Part shown: one piece after another, positions 13,187 through 60,643 of the stretch
Layout of the letters: every line of letters begins with the position of its first letter
How positions within the stretch are numbered: the stretch's first letter is position 1
Assembly: GCA_025358295.1 (NCBI GenBank)
Contig: JANYJY010000045.1
Coordinates: 1 to 64,000, forward strand
DNA: 64,000 nt
Origin: Gammaproteobacteria bacterium
GTDB taxonomy: Bacteria > Pseudomonadota > Gammaproteobacteria > Steroidobacterales > Steroidobacteraceae
Direction: 5' to 3'
The notes under the pieces: generated by a model
The model's input: only the letters and a program-made list of their open reading frames with translations
Told to the model about the DNA's origin: nothing
The model's database searches: none
Position numbers and translations under genes: made by a program

Positions 13187-14539
13187 ATGTCCGAAGACTG
13201 GACCCAATGGGAGAACCGGCTCATCGGCGGGGTGTACCCCCTGCGCCGCTTCCTGGGACAATCGGATCACAGCGTCGTTTTTCTGACCGAGCACCGGGCC
13301 AAGGGCCTGGCCCAAGCGGCGATCAAGCTCATTCCGGCCGACCCTGCGCTGACCGCGGTGCAGCTGTCTTATTGGAGGTCGGCCGCCACCCTGAGCCACC
13401 CTCACTTGTTGCCCATTCTCGATGCCGGCAGTTGCGCTCTCGGCGGGCATCCCTTTCTGTTCGTTGTCCTTGAATATGCGGAAGAGACTCTCGCGCAAAT
13501 CCTTCCGCAGCGCGCGCTGACTACCGATGAAGTGCGCGGCATGCTGCGCCCCATGCTCGAAACCCTGGCCTACCTTCACGGCAAGGGCTGGGCGCACGGG
13601 CAACTCAAATCGCCGAATGTCCTGGTCGTCGGCGATCAAGTAAAACTTGCCGGCGACAACCTACTGCCCATCGGCAAGTCGAGGCCGGTATTCACCAAGC
13701 CTTCGCCTTATGATCCGCCGGAATCCAAGGGCGGCGCCGTATCCGCCGCAGGGGATGTCTGGGGTCTCGGCGTCATCCTGGTCGAGGCACTGACTCAACG
13801 CCTGCCCGCGCTCAAGGATGACTCTGCAGTCGAGCCGGCGGCTGTGGTTGCACTGCCGGACTCCGTCCCACCGCCGTTCGTTGACACGCTACGCCGGTGT
13901 CTGAGCCGCGATCCCACCCGCCGCCCCCCGATCGCGGAACTCAACGATCGATTCTATGCAGCGCCGCCGCCCGCGTCGGAAGCGCCACCCGCAGTGGATC
14001 ATGTACCGGTGATTAGCGTTCCGCTGTGGAATGCGTTCAATCATGGCTGGATACTGAGCGCGGCCGCGGCTGCCCTCCTGCTGATCATCACCGCCTCGGT
14101 TGGCCTGTCCCTGCGGCACGCCCCGCCGCCGTCGCCGGCCGGCGTCTCTCCCGATTCGTCGGCGGTCTCCGCGCCGTCCGCAGCGGCGCCGCCGAATCAG
14201 AATGCACCGTTGGTGCGGCCGGCGCCCTCCTCGCAACCTGCAGCCGATGCCGCGCAGACGGTCCTGCACGAAGAGATTCCCAACGTGTCGCGCAGCGCGC
14301 GCGAATCGATTCACGGCGACATCAAAGTAGCGATTTATGTCACCGTCGACCGCTCCGGCAAGGTGGTCGGCCAGAAAATAGAGCTGCATGGCGGCAGCAA
14401 GTATTTCGCGCGCTTGGCCAGCGAAGCGGCCAAAAAATGGAGCTTTGTTCCGGCGGACCATCCCAACTCCCGCGGGTGGCTGTTGCGGTTCGAGTTCACC
14501 CGCGCCGGCGCAACGGCGCACGCCACTGCCCGCCCATAA
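13187..14539 (+). CDS. protein kinase-fold protein (predicted pseudokinase) - TM - TonB C-terminal-like domain
   Basis: AAIKLI lysine retained; HGQLKSPNVLV replaces HRDLKxxN; no DFG; APE-like DPPES; TM WILSAAAAALLLIITA; C-terminal VAIYVTVDRSGKVVGQKIELHGGSKYFARLASEAAKKWSFVPA. Confidence 0.75.
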   Translation: MSEDWTQWENRLIGGVYPLRRFLGQSDHSVVFLTEHRAKGLAQAAIKLIPADPALTAVQLSYWRSAATLSHPHLLPILDAGSCALGGHPFLFVVLEYAEETLAQILPQRALTTDEVRGMLRPMLETLAYLHGKGWAHGQLKSPNVLVVGDQVKLAGDNLLPIGKSRPVFTKPSPYDPPESKGGAVSAAGDVWGLGVILVEALTQRLPALKDDSAVEPAAVVALPDSVPPPFVDTLRRCLSRDPTRRPPIAELNDRFYAAPPPASEAPPAVDHVPVISVPLWNAFNHGWILSAAAAALLLIITASVGLSLRHAPPPSPAGVSPDSSAVSAPSAAAPPNQNAPLVRPAPSSQPAADAAQTVLHEEIPNVSRSARESIHGDIKVAIYVTVDRSGKVVGQKIELHGGSKYFARLASEAAKKWSFVPADHPNSRGWLLRFEFTRAGATAHATARP

Positions 14540-14612
14540 CGCAGCCGAGAACCATGCGTTATTGCCCGGCTTGCGTCAAAATGACGCATTGCTGGACCAC
14601 GAGGAGAGATTG

Positions 14613-16145
14613 ATGACTGATTCAATTGAACCGGGCTTAAGCCGGCGCGATTTCGTGCAGGGCGCCGTCTCGGGTGCCGTATTGGCTGCCGCACCGGCGG
14701 CGGTGATGGCCGCGAGCGGCGAAAAGAACGCCGATAAGGCAGCGGTGTTGGCCCAGGTGCCGAAAATGCACGCGGAAAACGTGCAGCGGCTGCAGGACTG
14801 GGTCGCTCTGCCTTCCATTGCGGCGGAGAACCGCAATTATCCGCAAGGTGCCGAGTACATGGCCAAGCTTGCGGAAGCGGCAGGCTTCAGCGGCGTAAAA
14901 ATCATTCCGACCTCGGGGAAGCCAGGAGTGTTCGGCCGCCTGGATTCAGGCGCCAAGACCACGATGGCGATCTATTTCATGTACGACGTGAAGCAATTCG
15001 TTCCCTCGGAATGGAGCTCGCCTCCGCTAGAAGCCCGGTTGGTGGAAAAGCCCGGCCTGGGCACGGTGTGCATGGGACGCGGCGCCGTGAATCAAAAAGG
15101 ACCGCAAAACTCCTTCCTGGGGGCACTCATGGCATTCAAGGCCACGGGCAAAAAATTACCTGTCAATCTGGTCTTGGTGTGCGAAGGCGAAGAGGAAATT
15201 GCCTCGCCACACTTCGGTGAAATCGTCAACAGTCCCGATGTATTTCCGCATATGAAATCCTGCGTCGGCGTGATGCTGCCGGAGGCCAGCCAGGGACTGG
15301 ACGGCAGCGTACAGTGCGATGCCGGCGCGAAGGGCGTGGTGGAATTGGAACTGGTGTCGAGCGGAGAAAGCTGGGGACGCGGGCCAAAGCGGGATATTCA
15401 CTCGAGCCTGGAAGCGCAGGTGGATTCGCCGTCCTGGCACTTGATTCAAGCGCTCAACACTCTGGTCGAAAAAGATGGCCACACGCCGGCCGTCGAGGGG
15501 TTTTTCGACAAGGCCAAGCCGCTGACCGATGCGCAGAAGAAAATGGTGTTGGCGTATGCCGCGGCGGTGCCCGAAGCCACCTCGAAGGCTGAATTCGGCG
15601 TCGATCACTGGGTGCACGATCTGAACTGGCAGGACTCCTTGCTGCGTCTGTACTCACAGCCCACCATCAATATCGAGGGACTCGTGGGCGGCTACACCGG
15701 ACCCGGAGGCAAGACGGTGCTACCGCATCGGGCAGTCGCCAAAATCGACATGCGTCTGGTGCCCGACATGACCGCCGCCGACACCTTGGCCAAGCTCAAA
15801 GCGCATCTGGCCAAGCATGGTTTCGGCGACATCGAAGTCAATATGAGCGGCGGCTATGACCCCACGCAGACGGATCCCAACAGCAAGTTCTTCAAGGCGG
15901 TGCTGGCAACATTCAACAAGCTCGGTTCACCGCCCCTCGTCGTGCCGCGCAGTCCGGGTTCTTGGCCCGGCTATCGATTCACGAGCCCACCGTTAAGTCT
16001 CCCGGCCGGTCAATTTGGACTGGGGCATGGCACCGGCGCGCACGCTCCGGATGAGTACTACTTGATCGACTCGAAGAATCCAGCGATCAAGGGATTGGAC
16101 GGTGCGGTCGCATCGTTCGTCGAGTTCCTGTACGCCATGGCTTAA
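14613..16145 (+). CDS. M20 family peptidase, Tat-exported
   Basis: Tat signal SRRDFVQGAVSGAVLAAAPAAVMA; YFMYDVKQ, CEGEEEIASPH; start trimmed to ATG 14613. Confidence 0.85.
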   Translation: MTDSIEPGLSRRDFVQGAVSGAVLAAAPAAVMAASGEKNADKAAVLAQVPKMHAENVQRLQDWVALPSIAAENRNYPQGAEYMAKLAEAAGFSGVKIIPTSGKPGVFGRLDSGAKTTMAIYFMYDVKQFVPSEWSSPPLEARLVEKPGLGTVCMGRGAVNQKGPQNSFLGALMAFKATGKKLPVNLVLVCEGEEEIASPHFGEIVNSPDVFPHMKSCVGVMLPEASQGLDGSVQCDAGAKGVVELELVSSGESWGRGPKRDIHSSLEAQVDSPSWHLIQALNTLVEKDGHTPAVEGFFDKAKPLTDAQKKMVLAYAAAVPEATSKAEFGVDHWVHDLNWQDSLLRLYSQPTINIEGLVGGYTGPGGKTVLPHRAVAKIDMRLVPDMTAADTLAKLKAHLAKHGFGDIEVNMSGGYDPTQTDPNSKFFKAVLATFNKLGSPPLVVPRSPGSWPGYRFTSPPLSLPAGQFGLGHGTGAHAPDEYYLIDSKNPAIKGLDGAVASFVEFLYAMA

Positions 16146-16531
16146 TGCGACTGCCCTTCCGGGGCCGCATTCGAAAAATGTTTGGCGGGGGCCGCGTGCG
16201 GCGCGCGGCTCCTGGCCAACTTTGCCGCCGCCGCGCGGATTTTAGCGCCGATGCCGCGCATGTCCGGCGCCAGTTCGGCAGCGCGCTGATAGGCGCGAAG
16301 CGCGTCTGCCGGGCGATTCGCGCCTTGCAGCGCATCGCCGAGAGCCGCGAGGACCACAGGATCGTTCGGATTCCAGCGAATCGCGTCGTAGCAAGACTCA
16401 AGGACGGCGTGCACACGACAGTTGCCGATATCGCGTTTCAGCGCACCAGGCGGGGGCTGCGCCGCCGTCGCTGGTTCCCATGCACATACGGTCGTGAGTA
16501 CCAACAGCGCTAAAAGAATATGCCGTCTCAT
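16142..16531 (-). CDS. small secreted TPR-like protein
   Basis: MRRHILLALLVLTTVCAWEPATA signal; NPNDPVVLAALGDALQGANRPADALRAYQRAAELAP; start overlaps the stop of the upstream FGE gene. Confidence 0.7.
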   Translation of the reverse strand: MRRHILLALLVLTTVCAWEPATAAQPPPGALKRDIGNCRVHAVLESCYDAIRWNPNDPVVLAALGDALQGANRPADALRAYQRAAELAPDMRGIGAKIRAAAAKLARSRAPHAAPAKHFSNAAPEGQSH

Positions 16532-18375
16532 GGCGTAATTTCCCTGACCAGCCGAATACCCACGCTGCTGGTCCGGTAGTTCGCGGCGAAGTGGTTGCGG
16601 TAGCTGGCCCGCACATAGGCAGGATCGCTGAACCAGGATCCGCCGCGTAGCTCGTGGTCGGAGCAATTGCCTTCCGTGCGCGCAGAGCCATCGACCGGCG
16701 CGCCCGTGTAATCCGGATACCAGCAATCTTCGGTCCACTGAAAGACATTGCCCAGCATGTCGTTGAGACCAAATAGGTTGGCCAGGAAGGAGCCGACCGG
16801 CGCCGTGAAGGCATAGCCGTCATCGCAGGCGAATACCGTCCATCCCGGATACCGATGCGCCGCACTTTGATCGGCCACGTTGGCATTGGCGCAGACACCG
16901 GATCCGTCAGCACTCCACGGCTGAACCAACTCGCCGCCGGCACGCGCCGCGTATTCCCATTCCGCTGCGCTCGGTAATCGGTAGCGTTGCCCGGTGCTCT
17001 TCGACAACCATTCGGCGTAGGCCTTGGCATCGTTCCAAGATACGCATGTGACCGGGTGCAACTCGGTCTGCTCGAAGCCCGGACTCTCCCAATTGCTTGC
17101 CGGCCGCTGCCGCCATTCACCATCGTAGGTATCGCAGTCCTTCATATCCCGACCGGTGGCGGTGACGAAGGCACGGAACTCATCCACGGTCACGGCGTTC
17201 GTCGACATCGCAAACGAATCATCAATCGCCACACGATGCTGTGGCTTTTCAGCAGCGGGCGCACCCGCCAGATCGGCGGCGGACCCTTGCTTGAAACTGC
17301 CGGTGGGCAGCACCGTCACGGCGGGACAGGTCGGGCAGTCTCGTATGATGCTGCCGGGCTTCGGCAGAACCGGCGTCACGACCACGGGCGCCTTCGGCGG
17401 CGGGGGTGGACGGTGCAGCAAAGACCAGGCCGCCACGGCGAGTACCACGACCGCCGCCAGCATACCAAGCACTCGATTGATTGAACCTCGTTTGCGAGGC
17501 GCGGGAAGTTCCGGCGGCAATGGGTCCGCGATCCGTTCGGAGCGCTCGATGGGCTTGGGCACGATAACTTCGTGCTCAATCGGCTCCTGCGCACTCGGCT
17601 CACGCACAATCGTCTCGCGCTCGGTCGGCTCGTGCTGAGACGGCTCGTCCGCCGGCACCTCGGCCGTTTCGAGATTCATCTGCAGTGCGGCCACCTGCGC
17701 TCGCAACTGATCCCGCTCGGCGCGAAGCGTCACTAATTCGCGCTGCGCTTTGAGCGTGGCGGCGGCCGCGCGTAATTCCGTCTCCACGGTGGTCGGGCGC
17801 GACTCGAGCGCGCCGGGGTCCATGTCGTACTCCTGTTGTTGCGCGGCCAGCGTGGCCTCACGCTCCGTGAGCGAGTGCCGTATCTGCGCAATGGCCTGAT
17901 CGCGCGCCGCGAGCGAGTCCCGCACGGTGCGCAGTTCGGCAAGGTACCGCTCCGCTTTTCGCTGCGAGTCTTCGTAACGCGATTGCGCGTCTTCTTCGGC
18001 GGCTGCTTTATCGGCAAGCGCCTGTTCGAGTTCGCTGATCCTGGCTTGTTCGGATTCCATCGCAGCTCCGTCCGCCCCGGTCAGCGCGACGGACGCCAAC
18101 TCTTGGAGTTGAAGCCTTTCGGGCTCGGCGGGCTGCACCGCAGCGCGCTCCATCGCCTCATTGAGAATACGGATGACTTCGACATGCGCCTGCTCAGGAA
18201 GCGGCTCGATGGACTCGTGACGCTGAACGACGTTGAGCAACTCCCGCGGAGAAGTGCCGCTCGTCAACAGCCGGCTGAGCTGGGATTGCACATCCGGAAA
18301 GAGGAGGTCGCCGAATTCAAAAGCCTGCAAGACCTTCTCGAAGCTCGAGGCCGGTAGTGATTTCGTGCTGCCCAT
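16528..18375 (-). CDS. coiled-coil - TM - formylglycine-generating enzyme (SUMF1)-like domain protein
   Basis: Glu/Arg-rich coiled coil, TM VLGMLAAVVVLAVAAWSLL, C-terminal EFRAFVTATGRD...YRLPSAAEWEYAARAGG...MLGNVFQWTEDCW...LRGGSWFSDPAYVRASYRNHF. Confidence 0.85.
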   Translation of the reverse strand: MGSTKSLPASSFEKVLQAFEFGDLLFPDVQSQLSRLLTSGTSPRELLNVVQRHESIEPLPEQAHVEVIRILNEAMERAAVQPAEPERLQLQELASVALTGADGAAMESEQARISELEQALADKAAAEEDAQSRYEDSQRKAERYLAELRTVRDSLAARDQAIAQIRHSLTEREATLAAQQQEYDMDPGALESRPTTVETELRAAAATLKAQRELVTLRAERDQLRAQVAALQMNLETAEVPADEPSQHEPTERETIVREPSAQEPIEHEVIVPKPIERSERIADPLPPELPAPRKRGSINRVLGMLAAVVVLAVAAWSLLHRPPPPPKAPVVVTPVLPKPGSIIRDCPTCPAVTVLPTGSFKQGSAADLAGAPAAEKPQHRVAIDDSFAMSTNAVTVDEFRAFVTATGRDMKDCDTYDGEWRQRPASNWESPGFEQTELHPVTCVSWNDAKAYAEWLSKSTGQRYRLPSAAEWEYAARAGGELVQPWSADGSGVCANANVADQSAAHRYPGWTVFACDDGYAFTAPVGSFLANLFGLNDMLGNVFQWTEDCWYPDYTGAPVDGSARTEGNCSDHELRGGSWFSDPAYVRASYRNHFAANYRTSSVGIRLVREITP

Positions 18376-18941
18376 CCGATCGGTGCGTCTCTTGTGTGCC
18401 GATGCTTGCGTGCCCAGGATCTTCGCCTCGCCCCGCACGATAAATTACTCCACCAATGGGTATTTAACAGTAGATTGATCCCAATTGTGCGGCCGCCGGA
18501 GGGAAAATGCCTGAACTCGTGACGCGCGTCTCGCGGCGTCTTGCCGAATGGACCGAGTGTCGATGCCGAGAGTTACGTTTCGAATAAGCAGCGCGATCCC
18601 GGTCACGTAGGCACCACGCTGCCGGCCGCATTAACGCCGGTACGCAACAGGGCAGCGGTCAGTAACTCTTCGCATTGGCCACTCGAGCGCGCAATTAGAG
18701 GCTGAATCTAATATTGGCTCGGCTCCACGGGTCCTCGCCACCCAACATCACAGAAGTTCATGCCTATAATTTTGCTGTCGCACCAAGTTTCGTAAGGTCA
18801 TCGGATAAGGACGGTAGTCGAACCGCAACCACGTCAGCGAGCCCGGAGGTCTTCCGGAGAATCGCGGCTAGCTCAACGTATCTCAAATCCTCCTCTTGAT
18901 CCCCTATTCAATTGATTTTTATATAATTATTCCATAACGCC

Positions 18942-23268: not shown

Positions 23269-23661
23269 CTACTTGCGTGCTGCGCTCAGAGTCTCAATCT
23301 TCGCCGCCACTGCCCGACACGCATAGATCAGATCAGCCACCAACCGCTCGTCGATATTGAGATCGCCTTCGTACTCTCCGAGATTGCGAACGGAATGACA
23401 TTTAGCGAGGATTCGCCATACGTCCGGTCCTAATCCAAGTGTCTCGGGGAGTAGTTGAAAGACGACGTATCGGTTCGCGGGCCGGTACCCGTGCCAACGA
23501 AGGGCCGCCAAACTGAACGCATGAGCGGCGTTGTACGCGAGATCGAACCGGCTCTCCAAGGAGTTGGCGGTACGCGCCGCATCCTCCAATCTCGCTAAGG
23601 CAGAACGCTTAAGTCCGGAGAACTCCTTGGCTCCCTTTGGAGTGGCTTCCCCGGCCCGCAC
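23269..23661 (-). CDS. HEPN-domain protein (putative toxin of MNT/HEPN pair)
   Basis: All-helical; LAYNAAHAFSLAALRWHGYRP...KCHSVRNLGEYEGDL; 6 nt downstream of the nucleotidyltransferase gene. Confidence 0.65.
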   Translation of the reverse strand: MRAGEATPKGAKEFSGLKRSALARLEDAARTANSLESRFDLAYNAAHAFSLAALRWHGYRPANRYVVFQLLPETLGLGPDVWRILAKCHSVRNLGEYEGDLNIDERLVADLIYACRAVAAKIETLSAARK

Positions 23662-23667
23662 AGGTTT

Positions 23668-24297
23668 TCAAACGGCGAGGGAATTGGCGTCTCCAATGAC
23701 CCACAGCTTAGACTGACTTAGGACGCGACTCAGGAACGCATTTCCGTCGCGAACCCTCTTCTTGATTTCCTTTCTCGAATAGACCGTTGGATTGACGGTT
23801 CGGCCCAGCAGGGTTGTTGCGGACTCCAAGACTGAGAAAATATCTGCATAGGCAAGATCATCGCTCACGACCATCAGATCTATGTCGCTTGCCGCAGTGT
23901 CGCTTCTTTTGGCAACGGACCCGAAAATAAAGGCCGCATCGATCTGCGCCGCCAGCGGCGCCAATGCCGCACGAATCACATCTACAAGACCAGAAGTCTT
24001 GAGTACCAACCCACGTAGTTCCTCAAAAACTGGAGCCGCAGAATTGGCCTGGTAATGCTTCTGATTGCCTACGCGTTTGGCGGTCACCAACTGAGCTGCC
24101 TCGAGCCGGGACAGCAGCCTCTGGACCGCTCCAGATCCTGAACCCGCCAAGGCAATCAACTCGTTGGCGTAGAAACTGCGTGATGAATTGCCGAAGATCA
24201 CCGCTAGAACGCGCTGCTGCACCTTCGTGAATAGAACATCGGCAATGCCCGATTCGACCGGCAAGTTCTCTCGCTTCATACTTCGCTTTATGCCCAT
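23668..24297 (-). CDS. wHTH - nucleotidyltransferase (MNT) protein, partner of HEPN
   Basis: AAFIFGSVAKRSDTAASDIDLMVVSDD MNT motif after an N-terminal winged helix; start 24297 or 24279. Confidence 0.8.
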   Translation of the reverse strand: MGIKRSMKRENLPVESGIADVLFTKVQQRVLAVIFGNSSRSFYANELIALAGSGSGAVQRLLSRLEAAQLVTAKRVGNQKHYQANSAAPVFEELRGLVLKTSGLVDVIRAALAPLAAQIDAAFIFGSVAKRSDTAASDIDLMVVSDDLAYADIFSVLESATTLLGRTVNPTVYSRKEIKKRVRDGNAFLSRVLSQSKLWVIGDANSLAV

Positions 24298-24327
24298 TTT
24301 GGGTATGATAATACCCTTTTTGGGTAT
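24297..24327. promoter_or_regulatory. operator-like repeats upstream of the MNT/HEPN pair
   Basis: TTTTGGGTAT at 24297-24306 and again at 24318-24327 (21 bp period), with inverted half ATACCC at 24311-24316 giving GGGTAT-GATA-ATACCC. Confidence 0.55.
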
Positions 24328-24363
24328 AAAAGAGTATTTCGAGTGACAGCCCCCCCTAATCTT

Positions 24364-24382
24364 TATGTAATTCAATTACATA
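24364..24382. repeat. 19-bp perfect palindrome TATGTAATT-C-AATTACATA
   Basis: Read directly; intergenic between the two TA-like modules. Confidence 0.8.
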
Positions 24383-25157: not shown

Positions 25158-26726
25158 TTAGATCTTCTGCAGCCCGAAACGCCGCACCTTGGCGAGCAAT
25201 TCTCGATTGCTGGATAGCGATCCGCTCAAAGTCTTGGCGTAACGGCCCGTCTCTCTTATTTTCTCCCGCGCTGTCGCTCTGTCGCGATCATTGAGCAGGG
25301 ATAGCGGTGTCTTGGTCTCGAAGCCCATGCCGTAGAGAATGTATTGATAACTAGCCGCCGAAAAGACCTCCTCGCGATGCGGGAAATCTTCATGCCAGGG
25401 ACTGTGGTGTTCCCAATACTCGAGTTTCTCCTGCAAGCTCTCCGGAATCGACTCTCGGCGTCGGTTATCGGACCAAAAGGTCGAATCCGTTCGCCGGCTC
25501 AGCAGGTAATGCAGTTTCAGGAAGTCGACGATACGTTCCCAACGGTAGCGGAATGTCTCGTTGAAAATCTTTGCCGCGTGCGGCATGTCGTCCCGGCAGC
25601 CCGGCAGTAGATTGGCAATGGACTTCGCCGAGAGCTCGATCATGACGATGGCGGACGCTTCAAGGGGTTCCAAGAACCCAGCGGACAGGCCCACGGCGAC
25701 ACAATTGCGGCGCCAATATTCTTGGCGGTAGCCGGCGTTGATTTCGATCTTGCGAAAATTTAACGCAGCCGCTGGGTCGCCATTGTCTGCCAGATAACGA
25801 CGCAGTTCCTCCAGAGCTGCATCGTCCGACACGTAATCGCTCGCGAACACGTAGCCCACACCCCGGCGAGTGGTGAGTCCAATGTCCCACACCCAGCCGG
25901 ACGACACGGCCGTGGATCGGGTCACGGATGCGATGGGCGCCTCCTCCGATACATAGGGAACCTGCACCGCCCATGCTCGATCGACGAACAAAACATCCCG
26001 CTTCGGGAGAAACGGCACGCCGAAGTGCTTGCCGATCAACACCGAGGCGAAGCCGGTGCAATCAATGAACAGGTCGGCGCTCAATTCATTTCCCGATTTC
26101 ATCGCCAGATGCGAGATGTCGCCGTGCTCATCGGAGTGCACGCTCACGATTTCATCGTACACATGGCTCACCCCGAGTTTCTCGATGCAATGCCTCTGCA
26201 GGAAGGGCACGAATTTTCCGGCGTCCAGATGATAGGCATAGTTCGCGAGCCCCGCGAACTCCGGGGTCGTGATCAGCTTCGGCGCCAGCGAGTTCTCGCA
26301 CAGCGGCGCTTGAAAACTCAAGGACGCCGCGAAGCTCGAGTCCTGCGCGCCCTCCAGCCAATACGGTGCCAAGTTGCGCTCTTCATAGCCCGCCGGCAAG
26401 GTAAAGGGATGGTAGTAGGTATCCCCGCCGCTGCCATCCGTCCACTTTGCAAATTGGGTGCCTTGCTTGAAGGAGGCATCGCATTCGCGCAGAAAATCCG
26501 TTTCACTCACGCCGATCTGTTGCAGGGTTGCGCGAATGGTCGGCCAGGTGCCTTCACCGATGCCGATCGGTGGGACGCCTCTGGATTCGACCAACGTGAT
26601 CGAGACACCCTCCTCGCCGCGCTCCGGAAATCGCGATGCCAGCACGCCGGCGGTAATCCAGCCCGCCGAGCCGCCGCCGACGATCAGTATGTGTCGAATC
26701 GGCCGTGAATCATTGCGGGAGGGCAT
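25158..26726 (-). CDS. flavin-dependent tryptophan halogenase family protein
   Basis: IVGGGSAGWITAG, PPIGIGEGTWPTIR, CDASFKQGTQFAKW, SGWVWDIGLTTRRGVGYVF, GFLEPLEASAI. Confidence 0.92.
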   Translation of the reverse strand: MPSRNDSRPIRHILIVGGGSAGWITAGVLASRFPERGEEGVSITLVESRGVPPIGIGEGTWPTIRATLQQIGVSETDFLRECDASFKQGTQFAKWTDGSGGDTYYHPFTLPAGYEERNLAPYWLEGAQDSSFAASLSFQAPLCENSLAPKLITTPEFAGLANYAYHLDAGKFVPFLQRHCIEKLGVSHVYDEIVSVHSDEHGDISHLAMKSGNELSADLFIDCTGFASVLIGKHFGVPFLPKRDVLFVDRAWAVQVPYVSEEAPIASVTRSTAVSSGWVWDIGLTTRRGVGYVFASDYVSDDAALEELRRYLADNGDPAAALNFRKIEINAGYRQEYWRRNCVAVGLSAGFLEPLEASAIVMIELSAKSIANLLPGCRDDMPHAAKIFNETFRYRWERIVDFLKLHYLLSRRTDSTFWSDNRRRESIPESLQEKLEYWEHHSPWHEDFPHREEVFSAASYQYILYGMGFETKTPLSLLNDRDRATAREKIRETGRYAKTLSGSLSSNRELLAKVRRFGLQKI

Positions 26727-27525
26727 CGCCCACCCCGTCGCGCGGCGCCGCAGTCACGCCCGCGAGCCGCTTGTTCTTGCGTGCGACCAGAGCCGAGACA
26801 TGCGCCAGGGACGCCATCTGAAAATACAGCCACTCGAGATACTCGCGGTCGCGCAGTTCCGCCAATTGCGCCGCCGGCAAGGACTTCAGCGCCGCGGCGG
26901 CAATCCAGTACAGTCCCTGCATTTGCGTGGTACTGCGGTTGACGAACTCGATGTCGATGGCCACCGGCTCGATGAGATTGAGTTCGGCGAGTCGCCGCGT
27001 GAAGGCATACGCCTCGTTTGAGCCGCTCACCAGCGCCGACATCATCGAGCTGATGTTTTGCAAGAATTTCGTGGGTCGACCATCGTCTTGGAACAGGCGC
27101 TCGCCGTCGTTTGCCTGGACGTGTGGGCTGCTCAAGTCCAGTGCCAGATCGAGCGCAGGCTGCGCATTCGCCTCGGCGGGCGCCGGGCGAGGAATTAGCG
27201 CGAAGGGCTGACGCTGGATCTGCAACGGTATGTAAACCGCATCCCAAGAGCTTTCCGACAAGAACAGGTTCTCGCCGCGATCGAACCCCAGCAGCGCCGC
27301 CGGCTCGAACTGCCCATTGTCCGGGCTCTTGGTAAAAAAGATCGGGTAATTGGCCAACAGCCTGGGGAATTCGCGCGGAATCACGCTGACGACATTCACA
27401 CGGGCGTGATCGAGCAAGGCGCGCGCCGGCTCGAGCCGCAGGATGCGATGCGTTTGGCTGTTGAGGGCCACCAAGTTGGTCACTATTCTCTCCTGAAGCA
27501 TAAGATCTATACGATGCGCGCCCAA
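26710..27525 (-). CDS. SapC family protein
   Basis: VVSVIPREFPRLLANYPIFFTK...AALLGFDRGENLFL...YIPLQIQRQPFAL. Confidence 0.88.
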   Translation of the reverse strand: MGAHRIDLMLQERIVTNLVALNSQTHRILRLEPARALLDHARVNVVSVIPREFPRLLANYPIFFTKSPDNGQFEPAALLGFDRGENLFLSESSWDAVYIPLQIQRQPFALIPRPAPAEANAQPALDLALDLSSPHVQANDGERLFQDDGRPTKFLQNISSMMSALVSGSNEAYAFTRRLAELNLIEPVAIDIEFVNRSTTQMQGLYWIAAAALKSLPAAQLAELRDREYLEWLYFQMASLAHVSALVARKNKRLAGVTAAPRDGVGDALPQ

Positions 27526-27552
27526 CGTTAAGCGGTAGCGCGCCGCGTTACA

Positions 27553-28590
27553 ATGACTGTCATGACGTCACAGCCTACACCCGCCGCCGAATGGTCCGCA
27601 GTCGATGCCGGCCTTTTTGAGCGGACCATCAGACCCCGCGGCCGGCCGGCGATTCTGCGCGGCGTGGTGCAGGAATGGCCCGCCATTGCGGCGGGTCAAA
27701 CATCGCCCCAGGCGATGAGCGCGTATCTTAAAACCTTCTACAGTGGCCACCCCGCTCCGTTGTTCGAGGCGCCGGCCGCCATCAACGGCCGCTTCTTTTA
27801 TAACGAACGATTGGATGGCTTCAATTTCGAGTCCAAGCGCGCCTTGCTCACCGATGTGTTGGATCGTCTCTGCCATGGCATCGGCAAACCATCGGCGCCC
27901 TGCCTGTATTCGGGCTCGGTTTCACTGCCCATCTATCTGCCGGGTTTCTCCGCCGCCAACAATGCGCGCCGGCTGGTATTCGCCGAATCGGTGCTGGAAT
28001 CCATCTGGATCGGGAACCGCACTTGCATCCCGGCGCATTTCGACAACACGGGAAATCTGGCCTGCGTGGTGGCCGGTCGGCGCCGCTTTACCATGTTCCC
28101 TCCCGATCAGATCCGTAATCTCTACGTCGGACCGTTGGACCTCACCCCTGCCGGCCAGCCGGTTAGCCTGGTCGACATTCGTCATCCGGACCTGGCGCGT
28201 TTTCCCCGCTACGCCGAGGCGTTGACAGACGCAGAAGTTGCGGAGCTCGGGCCCGGCGATGCGGTGTATATCCCCGCCCTATGGTGGCACCACGTCGAAG
28301 CGCTCGACGAATTCAATGTGCTCGTGAATTATTGGTGGCGCGACGTCGCCGACTATTTCGACTCCCCCTCGAGCAGCCTGTTGCACTGTCTGCTCACCAT
28401 CAAGAGCCTGCCGGCCGATCAGCGGCGACGCTGGCAGGCACTGTTCGAGTACCTGATTTTCCAACCGGACGAAGCGGCGCTTCTGCATCTACCGCCGGAA
28501 ACGCGCGGCCTTTTCGGTGAGCTGACCGCCGACAAGGCGGAGCGCATCCGCGCCATCCTACTGAAGAACCTGTCGCGCAAGCCGAGCTGA
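27553..28590 (+). CDS. cupin-like (JmjC-type) domain protein
   Basis: RPAILRGVVQEWPAI...PAHFDNTGNLACVVAGRRRFTMFPPDQ...GDAVYIPALWWHHVEAL. Confidence 0.87.
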   Translation: MTVMTSQPTPAAEWSAVDAGLFERTIRPRGRPAILRGVVQEWPAIAAGQTSPQAMSAYLKTFYSGHPAPLFEAPAAINGRFFYNERLDGFNFESKRALLTDVLDRLCHGIGKPSAPCLYSGSVSLPIYLPGFSAANNARRLVFAESVLESIWIGNRTCIPAHFDNTGNLACVVAGRRRFTMFPPDQIRNLYVGPLDLTPAGQPVSLVDIRHPDLARFPRYAEALTDAEVAELGPGDAVYIPALWWHHVEALDEFNVLVNYWWRDVADYFDSPSSSLLHCLLTIKSLPADQRRRWQALFEYLIFQPDEAALLHLPPETRGLFGELTADKAERIRAILLKNLSRKPS

Positions 28591-28616
28591 CTCGGCGAGA
28601 GATTCGCGCCGCGGCC

Positions 28617-28647
28617 CCAAGTCCGCCCATGACTCGGGCGGACTTGG
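28617..28647. terminator. bidirectional terminator-like hairpin
   Basis: CCAAGTCCGCCC-ATGACTC-GGGCGGACTTGG, 12-bp perfect stem between convergent genes. Confidence 0.7.
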
Positions 28648-28658
28648 AACTCTAGCAA

Positions 28659-31607
28659 TTACAGGGCGACGCGGAAGCCCAGCTGATAGCGCGCGAACCC
28701 TTCCGATGCTGAATAGAACTGTTCCTCGTATCGACCGTGTTGCCGCTGCGACGCGGAGGTCAAATTGATGCCGTCGAAGAATATGCCGAAGTGGCGGTTG
28801 AAGTCGTAGCTCGCGCTCATATCGAGCTGTCCGTACGCCGCCGTGTACACCGGCTCATTCGCCTGCTGGATCTGCCCCAGGCCGGCCAGGAACTCGCCGC
28901 GATGGCTGTATGCCACGCGGGTCTGGAAGCCCCACTTCTCGAAGAAGCCGACGACGTTGTAGGAGCGACTCAAACCCGGCAGCGCGAACTGCGAACCGTT
29001 GATCAGGGCATTCCACTGCGCACCGCCGGTCGGAATGGACCAGTTCGCCTGCACGCCAAAGCCGCTGTCGCCGAACACATGCTGAACCGCGAATTCGAAG
29101 CCGTGGATCTGAGTCGTGTTGGCATTCGACGGCGCCGTGATGTCCCAAATGACCAGAGGATCGCCGGGTTGGCCGGTGAACGTCAGCTTGCCGGGATTGT
29201 CCGCCAGAATCTGCCCGAAAATGCTTTGCGCAGTGATCGCTTTGCCCGCTGCAGCCAACTCGGCCTGGGCCTTGGTGGACGCTGCGCCGGTGTACGGATC
29301 GGTGATTCCGAACAGGGGTCCCTGCTTCGTCGTCTGCGTCAGGAAGTTGGTCACATGCTTGGTGAACCAGTTGGCCGACACATAGCTGTCCTTGGCGTAG
29401 TACCACTCGGCGGCGAGATCGAAGTTATTCGACTCGTAGGGCAACAGACCGGGATTGCCGGCGGTGGCCGTGCGTGATCCCGGCTTCGGGAAACCCGTCA
29501 CAGAGGTGGTGCCGATCATGGAATTCAGGTCCGAGCGGCTCATGGTCTTGCTGTACGACGCGCGCAGCAGCACATCCGGCAATACCTGCAGACTCGTATC
29601 TAAGCTGGGCAGGAATTCATCATAGCCCGCGCGCACGCTACTGTAGCTTGCGTTGGCGGCGTAATTCGTAAAAAACTCCGTCGGATTGCTCCACTGAATC
29701 GACGTCGGCACCTTCTGCAGACTGGCAGCAGTGATGGTGCTGTGCTCATAGCGCAAGCCCGCAAGTGCCTTGAGCTGCATGCCGTCGAACTCCGTGTCGA
29801 AGTCCATCTGGACGAAGGGAGCCGGCGTGTCCTCCTTGATGTGATCATCATTGTTCGGCGAACGCGACTGCGCGAAGGTGTACGGCGGAAAGTTTCCATC
29901 TCCCGGCTTGCCGCCTGGCTGCGTGGCCGCGATGGCGGCGCCCAGCGGGAAGCTATAAAAATACGGCACGGCAATGCCGCAACCACCGCCGGAGAAGGAC
30001 TTCAGAATGCTGCAGCTCGACACCTTGGTGAAGGCGCTGCCCGGAATCATGCCGAGGTAGGCGGGATTGTAGTATCCCCACGCGAAATTGCCGCTGTTGA
30101 ACGCTTCCGCCTTGCTGGTCATGCGCTTCAAGTCGATGCCGGCCGTGATGGATTTAAGCCCACTCTGCGAGCCGTTCTTCCAGGTCGCGTCCAGCTTCAA
30201 CTCATCGATCACGGTCTTGAAAATATTGTTGTTGGCCTGGCCGAACAGCGGATCAATCGTTGCCGTGCCCAAGTTGCTGGTGTTGTACGGCGCTTTGTAG
30301 GTCCAGGAGGTGATCGGAATCGTCGTGCTGCCGAGCGAGAAATACTTATTGAGAGACAACTGTGGGTTCTGGCCGATGATGCCGAAATTATTGTTGCCCG
30401 ACGCGCCGCCGCCCGAATCCGCGGTGGAATGATGGCCGTCAAATTCCACGCTGATGTTGTCGGAGGCCTGCCATTTGACATTCAGGCCGGCCGATCCGTT
30501 CTGATTCATGAACTCATCGGCTGCCGAGAAGTACGACAGATCGCTGCCGGTATCGACCAGGTTCGTGACCGTGCCATGGGAATTGATCGTGGCGCTGGTC
30601 GGATTCGGGCCGTAATCGAACCAAGCACCGAAGGTGTGGCGGTTGACGTTGTCCTTGTAGAACGAATAGGTGTAGTCCGCCGTGGCCACCAGCGAGTCGA
30701 GGGGCCGAAATTGCAGCACAGCCTGGCCGTTGACGCGGCTGCGCTCATGATCGACCACGCCCCAACCCTCGTTCCGCGGGGCCCAATTGTGGCCGTCCGG
30801 ATTGCTATTGCTGCTGGTGACGCGCGGGTCGCCGGACGCAAATTGATCCTGCAGCCAGCCATCGATGTTGGCGTCCTGCTCCTGGCTATTGCGCTTTGAG
30901 TAGGACCCGTTGATCAGGAATCCCACGCGATCATCGAAAAAAGTATCGCTGAACAAGCCGGAGAACTCCGGCGTGATCTTGGCCCCGACCTTGCTCGACG
31001 TGTCGTCGGTGGCCTTGGCCTGAAACGTCGCGCGAATGCCGTGGAAATCGAAGGGGCGCGAGGTGGTGATATTGATGGTAGAACCGATGCCGCCGCTGGG
31101 CACGTCGGCGCGGCCGGTCTTGTAGACCGTTATGCCGGCGATGCCGTCGGAGGAGATATTGGCGAAATCGAAGGAACGTGTCGCACCCGGCTGGCCCGGC
31201 GTCAAACTGCCCGGCATGGAGCGGCCGTTCAAGGTGATCAGATTGAAATCGGGGCCGAAGCCGCGCACCGTTACCCGCGAGCCTTCGTTGTTGATGCGAT
31301 CGATGGTCACGCCGGGAATGCGCTGGATGGATTCGGCCAGGTTCGTGTCCGGAAACTTGCCGATATCCTCGGCGGTAATCGCGTCGACCACACCGGCGGA
31401 GTGCCGCTTGATGCTCTCGGATGTGACCAATGATTGGCGCAACCCCGTGACCACGACCTCTTGCAGCTGATCCGAGGCAGCTTCGGTCGTTGCCGCCGCG
31501 GCACCGGAACAGTACATCGCGACCAACACTGCCAGTGGCGTCATCGTCAATTGCGGTAAAGGTTGATGCGCCTTCTTGCAGGCGCGCGCAAGGCTCGACT
31601 TCTTCAA
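28659..31607 (-). CDS. TonB-dependent receptor
   Basis: LQEVVVTGLRQSL TonB box region, plug and barrel, C-terminal RYQLGFRVAL; probable TTG start at 31607 with GGGGAGAG upstream, then KKSSLARACKK... signal; track ORF start (31742) lies upstream of operator-like sites. Confidence 0.9.
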   Translation of the reverse strand: MKKSSLARACKKAHQPLPQLTMTPLAVLVAMYCSGAAAATTEAASDQLQEVVVTGLRQSLVTSESIKRHSAGVVDAITAEDIGKFPDTNLAESIQRIPGVTIDRINNEGSRVTVRGFGPDFNLITLNGRSMPGSLTPGQPGATRSFDFANISSDGIAGITVYKTGRADVPSGGIGSTINITTSRPFDFHGIRATFQAKATDDTSSKVGAKITPEFSGLFSDTFFDDRVGFLINGSYSKRNSQEQDANIDGWLQDQFASGDPRVTSSNSNPDGHNWAPRNEGWGVVDHERSRVNGQAVLQFRPLDSLVATADYTYSFYKDNVNRHTFGAWFDYGPNPTSATINSHGTVTNLVDTGSDLSYFSAADEFMNQNGSAGLNVKWQASDNISVEFDGHHSTADSGGGASGNNNFGIIGQNPQLSLNKYFSLGSTTIPITSWTYKAPYNTSNLGTATIDPLFGQANNNIFKTVIDELKLDATWKNGSQSGLKSITAGIDLKRMTSKAEAFNSGNFAWGYYNPAYLGMIPGSAFTKVSSCSILKSFSGGGCGIAVPYFYSFPLGAAIAATQPGGKPGDGNFPPYTFAQSRSPNNDDHIKEDTPAPFVQMDFDTEFDGMQLKALAGLRYEHSTITAASLQKVPTSIQWSNPTEFFTNYAANASYSSVRAGYDEFLPSLDTSLQVLPDVLLRASYSKTMSRSDLNSMIGTTSVTGFPKPGSRTATAGNPGLLPYESNNFDLAAEWYYAKDSYVSANWFTKHVTNFLTQTTKQGPLFGITDPYTGAASTKAQAELAAAGKAITAQSIFGQILADNPGKLTFTGQPGDPLVIWDITAPSNANTTQIHGFEFAVQHVFGDSGFGVQANWSIPTGGAQWNALINGSQFALPGLSRSYNVVGFFEKWGFQTRVAYSHRGEFLAGLGQIQQANEPVYTAAYGQLDMSASYDFNRHFGIFFDGINLTSASQRQHGRYEEQFYSASEGFARYQLGFRVAL

Positions 31608-31681
31608 GTTACTCTCCCCATTCCCGGCGTTGCGGGAAAACACCGTTTTCTGTTCTGCCAGCGTCGTGCGCCAGTTCTTTA

Positions 31682-31708
31682 TGCGACCGGTTTCTGAAAC
31701 CGGTTGCA
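31682..31708. promoter_or_regulatory. tandem LacI-type operator-like sites
   Basis: TGCGACCGGTTTCT (31682-31695) and TGAAACCGGTTGCA (31695-31708); contains perfect 19-bp palindrome ACCGGTTTC-T-GAAACCGGT (31686-31704). Confidence 0.65.
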
Positions 31709-31827
31709 GATTTATACTGCCAACGGTTTTTGAAAATTGCAAGTGCTATCGCCCTATATTTTCAGCCGATTGGGCCAATCATGACAAACCGGCCTTGACA
31801 GCAGGCGCCCAAACCAAGCAGCATTCT

Positions 31828-31841
31828 TGAAACCGGTTGCA
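31828..31841. promoter_or_regulatory. LacI-type operator-like site
   Basis: TGAAACCGGTTGCA, identical to 31695-31708, upstream of the MFS gene. Confidence 0.65.
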
Positions 31842-31998
31842 AGAGCGAGCTTGAGACTCGCGCTCGGGGGGGGGAAGATATATGAGTGGCGGATTGGCAC
31901 GTCGGGAACGATCGTCCGAGGCGTCGGAGCACACCGCAACGCTCGATAGCGGTGCTAAATTTGCACCCGAACCTGAGAAACCCGATGGCGCGGCGATA

Positions 31999-33384
31999 AT
32001 GATCAACCCTTTGAAATTGTTCGGCATCGCGCTCACGGTGGCCATGGGCGGCTTTTTGGTGGGGTTCGATGCCACGGTCATCTCCGGGGCGGTGCCCTTC
32101 ATTCGCAACTACTTTGGTCTGGGCAGCGCCGCCGGCACATTGAATTTGGGATGGGCGGTTAGCAGCCTGGGCTGGGGCGCCATGGCGGGAAACTTGAGCG
32201 CCGGGTTTTTGAGCGACCGCTTCGGACGCCGAGCCGTATTGTTGCTGACGGCCGTATTGTTTCTGGCTTCCTCGCTGGTCGCGGCGCTGGCCACGAGCTT
32301 TCCCTTGTTCATCGCGGCACGAATTGCCGGAGGCTTGAGCGTCGGCGCAGCCATTCTCATTGCGCCCGTCTATATCGCCGAAATCGCGCCCGCCCGCAGC
32401 CGCGGCAGTCTGGTCTCCGTGAATCAATTGATGATCGTCATTGGCATCTCGGTTTCGTTCTTCTCGAATTATTTTCTTCTGTCCCTGGGCAGCAATAACT
32501 GGCGCTGGATGCTGGGAGTGCAGAGCATCCCGGCCGCGCTGTACTTCGTGCTGCTCTACCTGGTGCCCGAGAGTCCGCGATGGTTGATGAGCAAAGGGCG
32601 CGAATTGGATGCGCGCGCGGTGCTCGACGCCGTTCACGGCAAGAGCGCTGCCCAGGAATTCGACGTGATCAAGGGCAGCCTCGCTGGAAAATCACGACGA
32701 GTGGGCATCCGCGATCTCTTTTCCTTACAACTGCGACGCTTGATGCTGTTTGGGTTCGGCATTGCCTTCTTCCAGCAAGCCAGCGGCATCAACGCCATTT
32801 TCTACTATTTGCCGACGATTTTCGCGCAGGCGGGCGGCGGGCTCTCGACGGCTTTCGCTCAGTCCGTCCTGGTGGGTCTCGTCAACGTCGTGATGACCGT
32901 CGTCGCAATCCGGCTGATTGATCGCGTGGGACGGCGTCCGCTGCTGCTCTTCGGCGTCGCCGGTATGGCGATTTCTCTGCTTGCCATCAGCTGGGCCTTT
33001 CATGCGGCGCCCGGCTCTTCGGGCGGAACCAGCCCCATTGGCGACGAGCGTATCGTGCTCATCGCCATCATCGCGTACGTGGCCTGCTTCGCGATCTCCT
33101 TGGGACCTGTCATGTGGGTGTTGTTATCCGAGATCTTTCCGAATGAACAGCGTGCCGCGGCAATTTCCATCGTGGGATTTTGGAATTCCTTGGTGAGCGC
33201 CAGCATCACCTTGGTCTTTCCCACGGAGATCGCCCACTGGGGTCCGAGCGGCACTTTTCTCGTCTATGGCACGGTGGCGGCAGCGGGATTTGTGTTCTTG
33301 TCGGCGCTTGCTCCCGAGACGCGCGGCAAGTCGCTCGAGGAATTGGAAGGCATGCTGGTGCGCCCGGCCCACAGGGCTGCGTGA
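31999..33384 (+). CDS. MFS sugar porter
   Basis: GGFLVGFDATVISGAVPFI, DRFGRR, PESPRWL, PETRGKSLEELE sugar-porter motifs; start trimmed to 31999. Confidence 0.9.
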   Translation: MINPLKLFGIALTVAMGGFLVGFDATVISGAVPFIRNYFGLGSAAGTLNLGWAVSSLGWGAMAGNLSAGFLSDRFGRRAVLLLTAVLFLASSLVAALATSFPLFIAARIAGGLSVGAAILIAPVYIAEIAPARSRGSLVSVNQLMIVIGISVSFFSNYFLLSLGSNNWRWMLGVQSIPAALYFVLLYLVPESPRWLMSKGRELDARAVLDAVHGKSAAQEFDVIKGSLAGKSRRVGIRDLFSLQLRRLMLFGFGIAFFQQASGINAIFYYLPTIFAQAGGGLSTAFAQSVLVGLVNVVMTVVAIRLIDRVGRRPLLLFGVAGMAISLLAISWAFHAAPGSSGGTSPIGDERIVLIAIIAYVACFAISLGPVMWVLLSEIFPNEQRAAAISIVGFWNSLVSASITLVFPTEIAHWGPSGTFLVYGTVAAAGFVFLSALAPETRGKSLEELEGMLVRPAHRAA

Positions 33385-33448
33385 TGACCTTGTTGAACGT
33401 GCTTTGGATATTTGAGGCTTGTGCCTGTGACGTATACGCGGTGTTAAG

Positions 33449-34537
33449 ATGAAATCGAAACTCCCGACCCGAATTCCCGGGAAAAGTGGCCCGCGACCTG
33501 GGCAATCCGCGACCTTGCGCATCGTGGCTCGTGAAGCGGGCGTCTCGGCCAGCACCGTGTCGCGCATCATCAACGGCACGGTCAATGTCAGCGAGGGGCT
33601 GAAACGTGCGGTCGATGCGGCCATCGTCAAGTTCGATTTTCGGCCGAACGCCGCCGCACGCGGTCTGGCGCTTGGTAGAACGTCGACCATCGGCGTCGTC
33701 GCGCAGGCAATCGACAGCCCATTTTACGGTGAGGGGCTGCGAGGAATCGAGGCGGGCCTGAGGCAACGCGGCTATGCGCCGCTCATCATGAGCGGCAACT
33801 GGCGCGTCGAGGACGAGGAGCGCTGCGTACAGGAGCTCATTGCCCGCGGCGTCGACGGGGTCATCGTCTTTGCCGGGCGCTTGAGCGATGCCAAATTGAA
33901 AATGTACGCGAAGAGCGTACCGGTCGTCATCACCGGTCGCCGCTTGCGGGCGCCGCACTTGTTTAGCCTGCAAATCCAAGATGCTGAAGGCGCGACCCTC
34001 GCAGTGCGGCACCTCGCGGGTCTGGGTCACCGACAAATCGCATTCATTACAGGCTCCGAGAATCACCCGGACGCCATTGAGCGCCTGCGCGGCTACCGGC
34101 AGGCCCTGAGCGACGCGGGAATCGAGTTCAATCCCAAACTCGTCGCCGTCGGCGATTGGCATGAGGAGGGAGGCGTCAGGGCGACCATGGAACTGCTCGA
34201 CACGAAATTAGAATTTACCGCGCTCTTTTGCGTGAATGATCAGACGGCTTACGGCGCGTGCCTTGCCCTGTATCGGCAGGGGTTATCCGTGCCGCAGGAT
34301 GTGTCGGTGATTGGATTCGACGATCTGCCGTCATCGACCTACCGACTCCCGCCGCTCACCAGCGTGCGCCAATCGATTGGCGAACTCGGTGAGCGCTCTG
34401 CGCACGCCATTCTCGATCTGGTCGCCGGACGCCGGCCGCGCATGGTTGCGCCCAGCGTCGAATTGGTGGTCCGAGAATCGACGGGGCCCAGGCCCGAGAC
34501 CCGCAAAACGCCTCGACGCAGCGGTCGAAACGCATGA
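33449..34537 (+). CDS. LacI family transcriptional regulator
   Basis: TLRIVAREAGVSASTVSRIINGTVNVSEGLKRAVDAAI HTH; periplasmic-binding-like C-terminus VIGFDDLPSS. Confidence 0.93.
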   Translation: MKSKLPTRIPGKSGPRPGQSATLRIVAREAGVSASTVSRIINGTVNVSEGLKRAVDAAIVKFDFRPNAAARGLALGRTSTIGVVAQAIDSPFYGEGLRGIEAGLRQRGYAPLIMSGNWRVEDEERCVQELIARGVDGVIVFAGRLSDAKLKMYAKSVPVVITGRRLRAPHLFSLQIQDAEGATLAVRHLAGLGHRQIAFITGSENHPDAIERLRGYRQALSDAGIEFNPKLVAVGDWHEEGGVRATMELLDTKLEFTALFCVNDQTAYGACLALYRQGLSVPQDVSVIGFDDLPSSTYRLPPLTSVRQSIGELGERSAHAILDLVAGRRPRMVAPSVELVVRESTGPRPETRKTPRRSGRNA

Positions 34538-34561
34538 ATCCTCAGAAGATCAACGCCATCC

Positions 34562-35944
34562 ATGACTGACTCGGAATCTCTCGCCGCCCTGTCCCACCGC
34601 TTCCCGAAGAATTTTCTGTGGGGGGTTGCCAGCAGCGCTTTTCAGATCGAGGGCGCTGCCGCGACCGGCGGCAAAGGCGCATCGATCTGGGATGATTTTT
34701 GCCGCATCCCTGGTGCCATCGCCGACGGATCGGATGGCCAAATCGCCTGTGACCACTACCATCGACTCGATGCCGACCTAGACTTGATTGCGGGCCTGGG
34801 GGTCAAAGCCTACCGGTTCTCCATCTCCTGGCCTCGAGTTCAGGCCATGGGATCGGGCCCTTCGCTGAAATCCGGCATTGATTTCTATAATCGTCTCGTC
34901 GATGGCTTGCTCCTGCGCGGTATCGAGCCCTATGCGACCCTGTATCACTGGGACCTGCCGGCGGAACTGCAGCGCAAACATCAGGGCTGGGCGGATCGCA
35001 GCACCGCCTATCGCTTCGCGGAGTATGCCGCCCTCATCGCCCACGCCTTGGGAGATCGAGTGCGCTCGTTTGCGACGCATAACGAACCCTGGGTCACCGC
35101 GACTTTGGGCCATGAACTCGGTATTTTTGCGCCGGGTGTGAAGAATCGTGGTATCGCGATGCAGGTTGCGCACCACTGTCTCTTGAGTCATGGTCTGGCC
35201 GCGCAGGCCATGCGCAGCGCGCGTCGGTCTGTGGATGTCGGGATCGTTCTCAACCTGTCGCCGGTGTATGCGGCCAGCGCTTCGCTGGCCGATCATCGCG
35301 TGGCTGCGCGCGAGGATGGCTTGCTGGTGCGCTGGTACATGGATGCACTCTTGCGCGGAGCCTATCCCCGCGATGTCCTAGAGTACCTCGGGGCCGATGC
35401 CCCGCAGATCTCAGCCGGCGATGAACAATTGATCGCGCAGTCCTTGGACTTCCTCGGGGTCAACTACTACCACCCCATCATCTGCAGCGTGGCGCGGCCG
35501 TTTTCCCACGCTCGTGAGGGGGTGCCCGTGACCGACATGGGCTGGGAAGTGGCGCCCGCGAGTTTCACGGAGTTGCTGGTGCGTCTGGATCGCGACTACG
35601 ATTTGCCACCGCTGTACATAACCGAGAACGGCGCGGCCTACCGCGATGTTCTGGTCGAGGGGGGCGTCGAAGACCCCGAACGGCGTGCTTACATCGAATC
35701 CCATGTCAGCGCGGTCGCGGACGCGATCGGACAAGGCGTCGATGTACGCGGTTATTTTCTCTGGTCGCTGCTCGATAATTTCGAATGGGCGTCGGGCTAT
35801 ACCAAACGCTTCGGCATCTACTATGTCGACTACGCCACTCAGGCGCGAACCCTGAAACGCAGCGGCGTGTGGTTTAAAAATCTGGCGGCCGCCTTCCATC
35901 GTGAGCGCACCGGCGCGGCGCTCGCCGCAGAGCTGCGTCCATAG
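34562..35944 (+). CDS. GH1 beta-glucosidase
   Basis: FLWGVASSAFQIEGA; ATHNEPWV acid/base; YITENGAAY nucleophile; FLWSLLDNFEWASGY. Confidence 0.94.
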   Translation: MTDSESLAALSHRFPKNFLWGVASSAFQIEGAAATGGKGASIWDDFCRIPGAIADGSDGQIACDHYHRLDADLDLIAGLGVKAYRFSISWPRVQAMGSGPSLKSGIDFYNRLVDGLLLRGIEPYATLYHWDLPAELQRKHQGWADRSTAYRFAEYAALIAHALGDRVRSFATHNEPWVTATLGHELGIFAPGVKNRGIAMQVAHHCLLSHGLAAQAMRSARRSVDVGIVLNLSPVYAASASLADHRVAAREDGLLVRWYMDALLRGAYPRDVLEYLGADAPQISAGDEQLIAQSLDFLGVNYYHPIICSVARPFSHAREGVPVTDMGWEVAPASFTELLVRLDRDYDLPPLYITENGAAYRDVLVEGGVEDPERRAYIESHVSAVADAIGQGVDVRGYFLWSLLDNFEWASGYTKRFGIYYVDYATQARTLKRSGVWFKNLAAAFHRERTGAALAAELRP

Positions 35945-35966
35945 CAATCCATCGGTGACACCCCTC

Positions 35967-60182: not shown

Positions 60183-60643
60183 GCGGTGCCCACCGTTGCG
60201 TATAGCCGCCGCTGCTCAGCGGCGCGACCCGCCTGATGCAGCGCACCCAGGAGTTGGTTGTGTTCCAGAAACGCTTCGAGCCGCGCGCCTGGAGTCAGAC
60301 GACGTTCGGACTCTCCTGACGATTCTCGGGCTTCCTGCGCGAGTTTGGATCCGGGCGCATTCGTGCCTCGTCTAGGGAGACCCGAGACGAACGCGCCCGC
60401 CTCCTTGGCGTCGCGACCAGTTTGCAACGTGATCGGCAGTCCCACGCGAACGGCAATCCGGAGCAGAAATTCGATCGACAGATCGGACACGCGACCATTG
60501 ATGATCTTGCTCAATGTTGGCTGGGGTACGCCCAACCGCCGGGCAGCCGCCACTTGCGTGTCACCTAAACGTCGCGCAGCTCTCGATACTTGCAGCGCAA
60601 TATCGCGGCGCAACGATTGGATGGTGGCTTCATCGGGTAGCAT
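60179..60643 (-). CDS. XRE-type HTH protein (putative antitoxin/regulator)
   Basis: DTQVAAARRLGVPQPTLSKIINGRVSDLSIEFLLRIAVRVGLPI; 4-nt overlap with the nucleotidyltransferase gene. Confidence 0.8.
   Translation of the reverse strand: MLPDEATIQSLRRDIALQVSRAARRLGDTQVAAARRLGVPQPTLSKIINGRVSDLSIEFLLRIAVRVGLPITLQTGRDAKEAGAFVSGLPRRGTNAPGSKLAQEARESSGESERRLTPGARLEAFLEHNQLLGALHQAGRAAEQRRLYATVGTA

Follow-up and report, generated by a model that had tools for sequence, protein, structure and literature searches.

A conserved family of transmembrane pseudokinases with a TonB-type C-terminal domain in Steroidobacteraceae and Acidobacteriota

Bacterial pseudokinases, defined by loss of the beta-3 Lys, the HRD-Asp or the DFG-Asp (PMC12599244), are nearly unstudied. 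In Mycobacterium, the multi-pass peptidoglycan-synthesis protein MviN (ActPs3) contains a dead cytoplasmic kinase fold in which the beta-3 Lys is lost (VALT) and the activation loop is deleted; upon phosphorylation by PknB, this domain recruits FhaA and peptidoglycan synthesis is restrained (PMC12599244). Proteobacterial GLW pseudokinases carry a transmembrane (TM) segment C-terminal to the pseudokinase, with HRD replaced by GLW and the beta-3 Lys by Leu or Trp, and CP1 members feature a COG3899 ATPase fusion and no TM segment (PMC12599244). PknB-type PASTA kinases are active and connect the kinase through a single TM helix to a wall-binding periplasmic or extracellular module of PASTA repeats. 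GltG/PglI from the Myxococcus gliding machinery, part of the AglRQS motor complex, joins a cytoplasmic FHA signaling domain, a single TM segment and a Pro-rich periplasmic part to a TonB_C domain (PMC3169522). Escherichia coli TonB has a single TM helix, a Pro-rich linker and the C-terminal domain (CTD), with no cytoplasmic domain.

Comparison of the window protein with described systems

We analyzed a 64,000-nucleotide stretch of Steroidobacteraceae DNA, here termed the window. An earlier note, made from its letters alone, had proposed a pseudokinase fused through a TM segment to a TonB_C-like periplasmic domain, an architecture supported here by homologues, profiles and structure prediction. 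The gene is an intact open frame with these features:

13187..14539, + strand: whole gene, pseudokinase-TM-TonB_C-like protein of 450 aa (ATG start; full-length homologues 53% identical elsewhere)
13229..13951, + strand: protein-kinase-fold domain, residues ~15-255 (Pfam Pkinase, AlphaFold, Foldseek)
13256..13273, + strand: degraded glycine-rich loop, G24-S29, GQSDHS (family GxSDHS; alignment, n = 37)
13325..13327, + strand: retained beta-3 (VAIK) Lys K47 (37/37 in family alignment)
13595..13603, + strand: HRD changed to HGQ (H137 G138 Q139), catalytic Asp lost (homologue alignment)
13607..13618, + strand: retained catalytic-loop K141 and N144 (KSPN; family KPxN; alignment, n = 37)
13652..13660, + strand: DFG changed to GDN, residues 156-158 (family S-D-T/G), DFG Asp lost (alignment, n = 37)
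14045..14110, + strand: single TM helix, residues ~287-308 (AlphaFold helix; hydropathy peak in 38/38 relatives)
14111..14248, + strand: disordered Pro/Ala/Ser/Thr-rich periplasmic linker (pLDDT ~40)
14249..14533, + strand: TonB C-terminal-type domain, residues ~355-449 (TIGR01352, AlphaFold, Foldseek)

A full-length AlphaFold model computed from a 33-sequence alignment (mean pLDDT 84) gave confident predictions for the kinase fold, the single TM helix and the C-domain and left the linker before the C-domain disordered. Domain order and motif losses were conserved in 37/37 aligned full-length sequences, showing that the architecture is not due to chance.

As described in the text of the 2025 review, which mentions neither TonB nor Acidobacteria (PMC12599244), none of the comparable pseudokinase families (ActPs1-3, GLW, CP1, DYD and DLHK; ActPs1 compared less closely) fits the window protein. 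Like MviN, it is a membrane protein with a cytoplasmic kinase fold that is catalytically dead, but its family keeps the beta-3 Lys in nearly all members and the activation loop in most, features that are degraded and deleted in ActPs3; MviN is also actinobacterial and has no TonB-type domain. With GLW pseudokinases it shares proteobacterial origin, TM position and a replaced HRD; however, the family reads H/Q-G/R/C-Q/R/G at HRD and keeps the Lys, and no TonB domain is mentioned for GLW members in the review text. CP1 differs in that the window protein has a TM segment and no COG3899 ATPase. GltG/PglI matches the domain order but has FHA instead of a pseudokinase, and the window protein lacks the motor motif and motor-gene neighbors. 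The kinase-single TM-wall module layout of PASTA kinases recurs with a TonB fold in place of PASTA repeats. E. coli TonB is alike in CTD fold, sequence profile, single TM and Pro-rich linker but unlike in its SHLS motif and longer linker, both missing here. In a search covering mainly the open literature, we found no published account of this family or of kinase-TonB fusions; we place the gene product among the bacterial transmembrane pseudokinases.

Kinase-like domain and its relatives

Membership in the kinase fold was evident from the Pfam Pkinase match (1.1e-17, 64.8 bits versus a cut-off of 31.7), from a pLDDT mostly >90 and from Foldseek, which matched PknB, Aurora and PLK1 at E ~1e-14; by profile, PknB was the closest kinase among solved structures. 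The earlier note had read HGQ for HRD, no DFG and a kept VAIK-type Lys, and all three readings hold, HGQ at the very positions given. Among 37 full-length sequences, the HRD-Asp position is Q in 27 and G, R, A, K, E or other in the rest, and the DFG-Asp position is S in 32 and otherwise T, G or V, with D in none at either position. Two features had gone unmentioned: the degraded glycine-rich loop, where Ser occupies the second-Gly position in 37/37 sequences, and the alpha-C Glu, of which none is identifiable in the family alignment; the family's alpha-C has an invariant Trp. An APE-like PPE motif ends the activation loop in most members. By the published definition, these are pseudokinases, as HRD-Asp and DFG-Asp are missing throughout and the Lys is kept in nearly all. 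Alignment and structure prediction together identify a predicted kinase fold devoid of catalytic Asp, DFG Asp and alpha-C Glu that keeps its VAIK Lys.

Other residues are strongly conserved: K141 in 36/37 sequences, N144 in 37/37 and, one residue C-terminal of the DFG-Asp position, D157 in 37/37. The near invariance of K47, N144 and D157 suggests a retained ligand pocket. This K/N/D set could also mean that residual activity, or activity of a non-canonical kind, persists; in SidJ and SelO, pseudokinase folds catalyze other reactions (PMC12599244, PMC6858067). The domain would then be another enzyme, performing AMPylation, polyglutamylation or atypical phosphotransfer through K47, N144 and the shifted D157. 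We regard this as unlikely: a variable HRD-Asp position (Q/G/R/K/E/A), the glycine-rich loop and the missing Glu are unlike a conserved alternative active site, and even the Lys varies, being Arg in the Acidobacteriota relatives L119, L145, L147 and L148.

Homology searches recovered ~50 relatives with the same dead-kinase design in two phyla, ~45 from Steroidobacteraceae and 11 from Acidobacteriota, in none of which the HRD-Asp position (Q, G, R, K, E, A, H or other) is Asp. Within the window's family, 47/217 genomes gave matches at E 1e-14, a count that takes in C-domain-only matches and a few ordinary kinases. Named records were Gammaproteobacteria and Steroidobacteraceae metagenome-assembled genomes (MAGs), and cultured carriers are Steroidobacter gossypii, Steroidobacter agaridevorans and Peristeroidobacter soli. 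Acidobacteriota MAGs with the same architecture are L113, L115, L116, L118, L144, L145 and L146. At this stringency the family was not found in the rest of Pseudomonadota, where the 4/399 matching genomes were the window's own and three with HRD-bearing kinases; such absence is soft because the collection was scanned with two peptide patterns only and, in the genome searches, just the best candidates received a score. A PLSDB plasmid search at E 1e-15 gave no match.

The survey of homologues for HGQ versus HRD suggested earlier yielded no close homologue with intact HRD or DFG. Every sequence scoring >150 bits against the family profile, a wider set, lacks the HRD-Asp. The first HRD/DFG-bearing sequences by score are L131 and L132 (137-144 bits); apart from three more divergent pseudokinases, L146-L148 at 124-129 bits, everything under them is an ordinary kinase. 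L131 (1477-3384) and L132, the nearest HRD-bearing relatives, come from another Pseudomonadota class and are FGE-sulfatase-linked kinases; they share the N-terminal leader W..EG..I.G...LRRLLG with the window protein but have intact HRD and DFG and a C-terminal sulfatase-modifying-factor-like domain instead of TonB_C.

In a phylogeny of 67 kinase domains, a supported branch (95% SH-aLRT) separated the pseudokinases as one group from the HRD-bearing kinases, with a single change of HRD state. Steroidobacteraceae sequences formed one clade (99%) beside those from Acidobacteriota, a pattern compatible with a putative transfer between soil lineages. Kinase-domain dN/dS values of 0.15-0.42 across nine pairs show that the domain is maintained, under clear and long-term purifying selection. 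A decaying or mis-assembled kinase gene, to which the loss of several catalytic motifs might otherwise point, is highly improbable given full-length open frames in ~37 homologues, dN/dS <1 and conserved family-specific motifs, and gene decay is refuted by the conserved family. Because the dead-kinase design is kept in ~50 relatives from two phyla, it looks like a real family, probably one for cell-envelope signaling or scaffolding.

TonB-type domain and its exchange

In the whole window protein, TonB_C is weak: TIGR01352 scored 24.9 bits versus a cut-off of 27.1, and PF03544 15.9 bits versus 24.6; a second PF03544 score for the protein, 19.5 bits, was also under the cut-off. The isolated C-domain passed the TIGR01352 cut-off with 28.7 bits, and 39/39 family members matched this profile (E <= 0.01), so that the match posited earlier is present; since the window protein's Pfam score lies below the curated cut-off, it is the family, and not this single sequence, that carries the TonB assignment. 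Structures of E. coli TonB matched the family profile at E 3e-6. For residues 351-450 modeled alone (mean pLDDT 87), the nearest PDB folds in Foldseek were TonB-family CTDs (FusB 9hi3, E. coli 1xx3, Salmonella 8rd6 and the BtuB:TonB complex 2gsk). Profile and fold place the domain in the TonB CTD superfamily, with a predicted TonB-CTD fold.

Homology of the C-domain to the TonB CTD and the Pro-rich linker raise the question of whether the protein is a TonB-type energy transducer with an N-terminal regulatory pseudokinase, coupled to ExbBD and acting on TonB-dependent receptors. Such a role would agree with the several ExbB-like proteins that the genome encodes and with what looks by eye like a large TonB-dependent receptor at 28659-31742 of the window. 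TonB and TolA, however, contact their motor through an SHLS motif in the TM segment (PMC12204202), which is absent from 38/38 family TMs examined, only 8/38 of which contain any His. Moreover, the window protein's linker measures only ~45-49 aa, with an estimated reach of at most roughly 15 nm (family range 39-100 aa, median 53), no exbB, exbD or receptor gene is a conserved neighbor among 48 homologous loci, and a canonical 220-aa TonB adjoins ExbB elsewhere in the genome (G000:C42). The missing motif and the separate TonB-ExbB pair argue against a role as the cell's Ton energy transducer. TM motif, linker length and gene context together led us to reject that role as the best reading, and we consider it quite improbable. 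The interaction with TonB-dependent receptors that the earlier note suggested testing is likewise unsupported by motif, neighbors and linker length.

In the Acidobacteriota relatives L119 and L147, a SPOR domain (over the Pfam cut-off) takes the place of the TonB-like periplasmic module, and L148, with a weak SPOR match, is probably a third pseudokinase-TM-SPOR protein. SPOR domains bind denuded peptidoglycan glycan strands (PMC6895207). Some large Steroidobacteraceae genomes additionally encode the TM segment and C-domain as a protein of their own that lacks the kinase (L066-L072). The SPOR swap and these kinase-free proteins indicate that the C-terminal module behaves as an interchangeable envelope-binding unit. 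L066-L072 also share a short conserved cytoplasmic RLVIRI stretch, and nothing informative or conserved was found among the neighbors of their genes.

Genomic context and proposed function

A search for operons or partners at the 48 homologous loci revealed no shared neighbor beyond the closest relatives; with neighbor genes not conserved, no partner is indicated. At the gene itself, RNA features and promoters amounted to nothing above chance except four weak terminator-like stems. A mechanical ORF (14388-16145, +) overlaps the pseudokinase 3' end, and the M20 peptidase gene more likely begins at ATG 14613, its product carrying a Tat-like signal (SRRDFVQGA). The adjoining gene at 16528-18438 (-), not a conserved neighbor, encodes a coiled-coil and TM protein with an FGE-sulfatase-type domain (Pfam FGE-sulfatase 3e-58), its PvdO profile score lying under the cut-off. 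Farther along, by eye, nucleotidyltransferase-like genes at 23269-24375 (-) and 59628-60643 (-) adjoin a HEPN-like and an XRE-like gene in toxin-antitoxin-type pairs, and 25158-38171 resembles a carbohydrate-use locus with tryptophan-halogenase-like, cupin, TonB-dependent receptor, sugar transporter, LacI-type regulator, GH1 and GH3 genes.

Elsewhere in the genome, two more proteins (G000; C45, 696 aa; C50, 622 aa) combine a receiver-like cytoplasmic N-terminus (by eye) with a TM segment and TonB_C, so that signaling-type TonB_C proteins are recurrent there. The design had been called unusual; the fused architecture is real but less singular than thought, given these two proteins and GltG/PglI (PMC3169522). 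At G000:C45 (L162:1217-4686 and onward), a possible signaling operon begins with the receiver-like-TM-repeat-TonB_C protein, directly followed by a receiver-like protein that also carries a Ser/Thr kinase with HRD and DFG intact; next comes a signaling protein that resembles a membrane sensor and has an Hpt-like region.

With roughly even confidence, we propose that the window protein is an inner-membrane pseudokinase scaffold or sensor whose TonB-fold module would tether it to the wall or an envelope protein. The cytoplasmic pseudokinase would not phosphorylate; it probably binds nucleotide or another protein as a switchable docking platform and may itself be a substrate of an active Ser/Thr kinase in the cell. 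For this, the best functional analogy is MviN. The periplasmic module would anchor the protein to peptidoglycan or an envelope protein, as SPOR may in the Acidobacteriota relatives, and the protein would relay envelope state to, or position, a cytoplasmic partner. Peptidoglycan binding by TonB CTDs has only been proposed (PMC9022066), and SPOR in relatives supports a wall tether indirectly.

The protein might instead be a purely structural adaptor with a fixed cytoplasmic partner, no ligand or switch and no peptidoglycan role, its TonB-fold domain binding a periplasmic protein. A precedent is EssB/YukC, a pseudokinase that spans the membrane and plays a structural part in T7SS assembly (PMC12599244); the degraded glycine-rich loop points the same way, and protein binding by TonB CTDs proceeds through beta-strand addition (PMC12204202). 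Yet a pure adaptor would not need K47, N144 and D157, which are kept, and the genes nearby encode no secretion system or other machine, leaving this alternative rather doubtful.

A scaffold or sensor tethered by its TonB fold could be taken further, to a tentative and decidedly speculative transenvelope relay. Here a TonB fold originating in energy transduction would serve as an exchangeable wall- or envelope-sensing module (TonB fold or SPOR) on a nucleotide-binding, non-phosphorylating kinase domain; common to two phyla, the relay would partner active Ser/Thr kinases in a cell-wall checkpoint.

Since cultured members exist, the family is open to experimental test. The pairing of a dead kinase with a TonB-fold domain interchangeable with SPOR offers a testable case of cell-wall-linked pseudokinase scaffolding in Gram-negative bacteria and, equally, of a role for the TonB fold beyond nutrient import.
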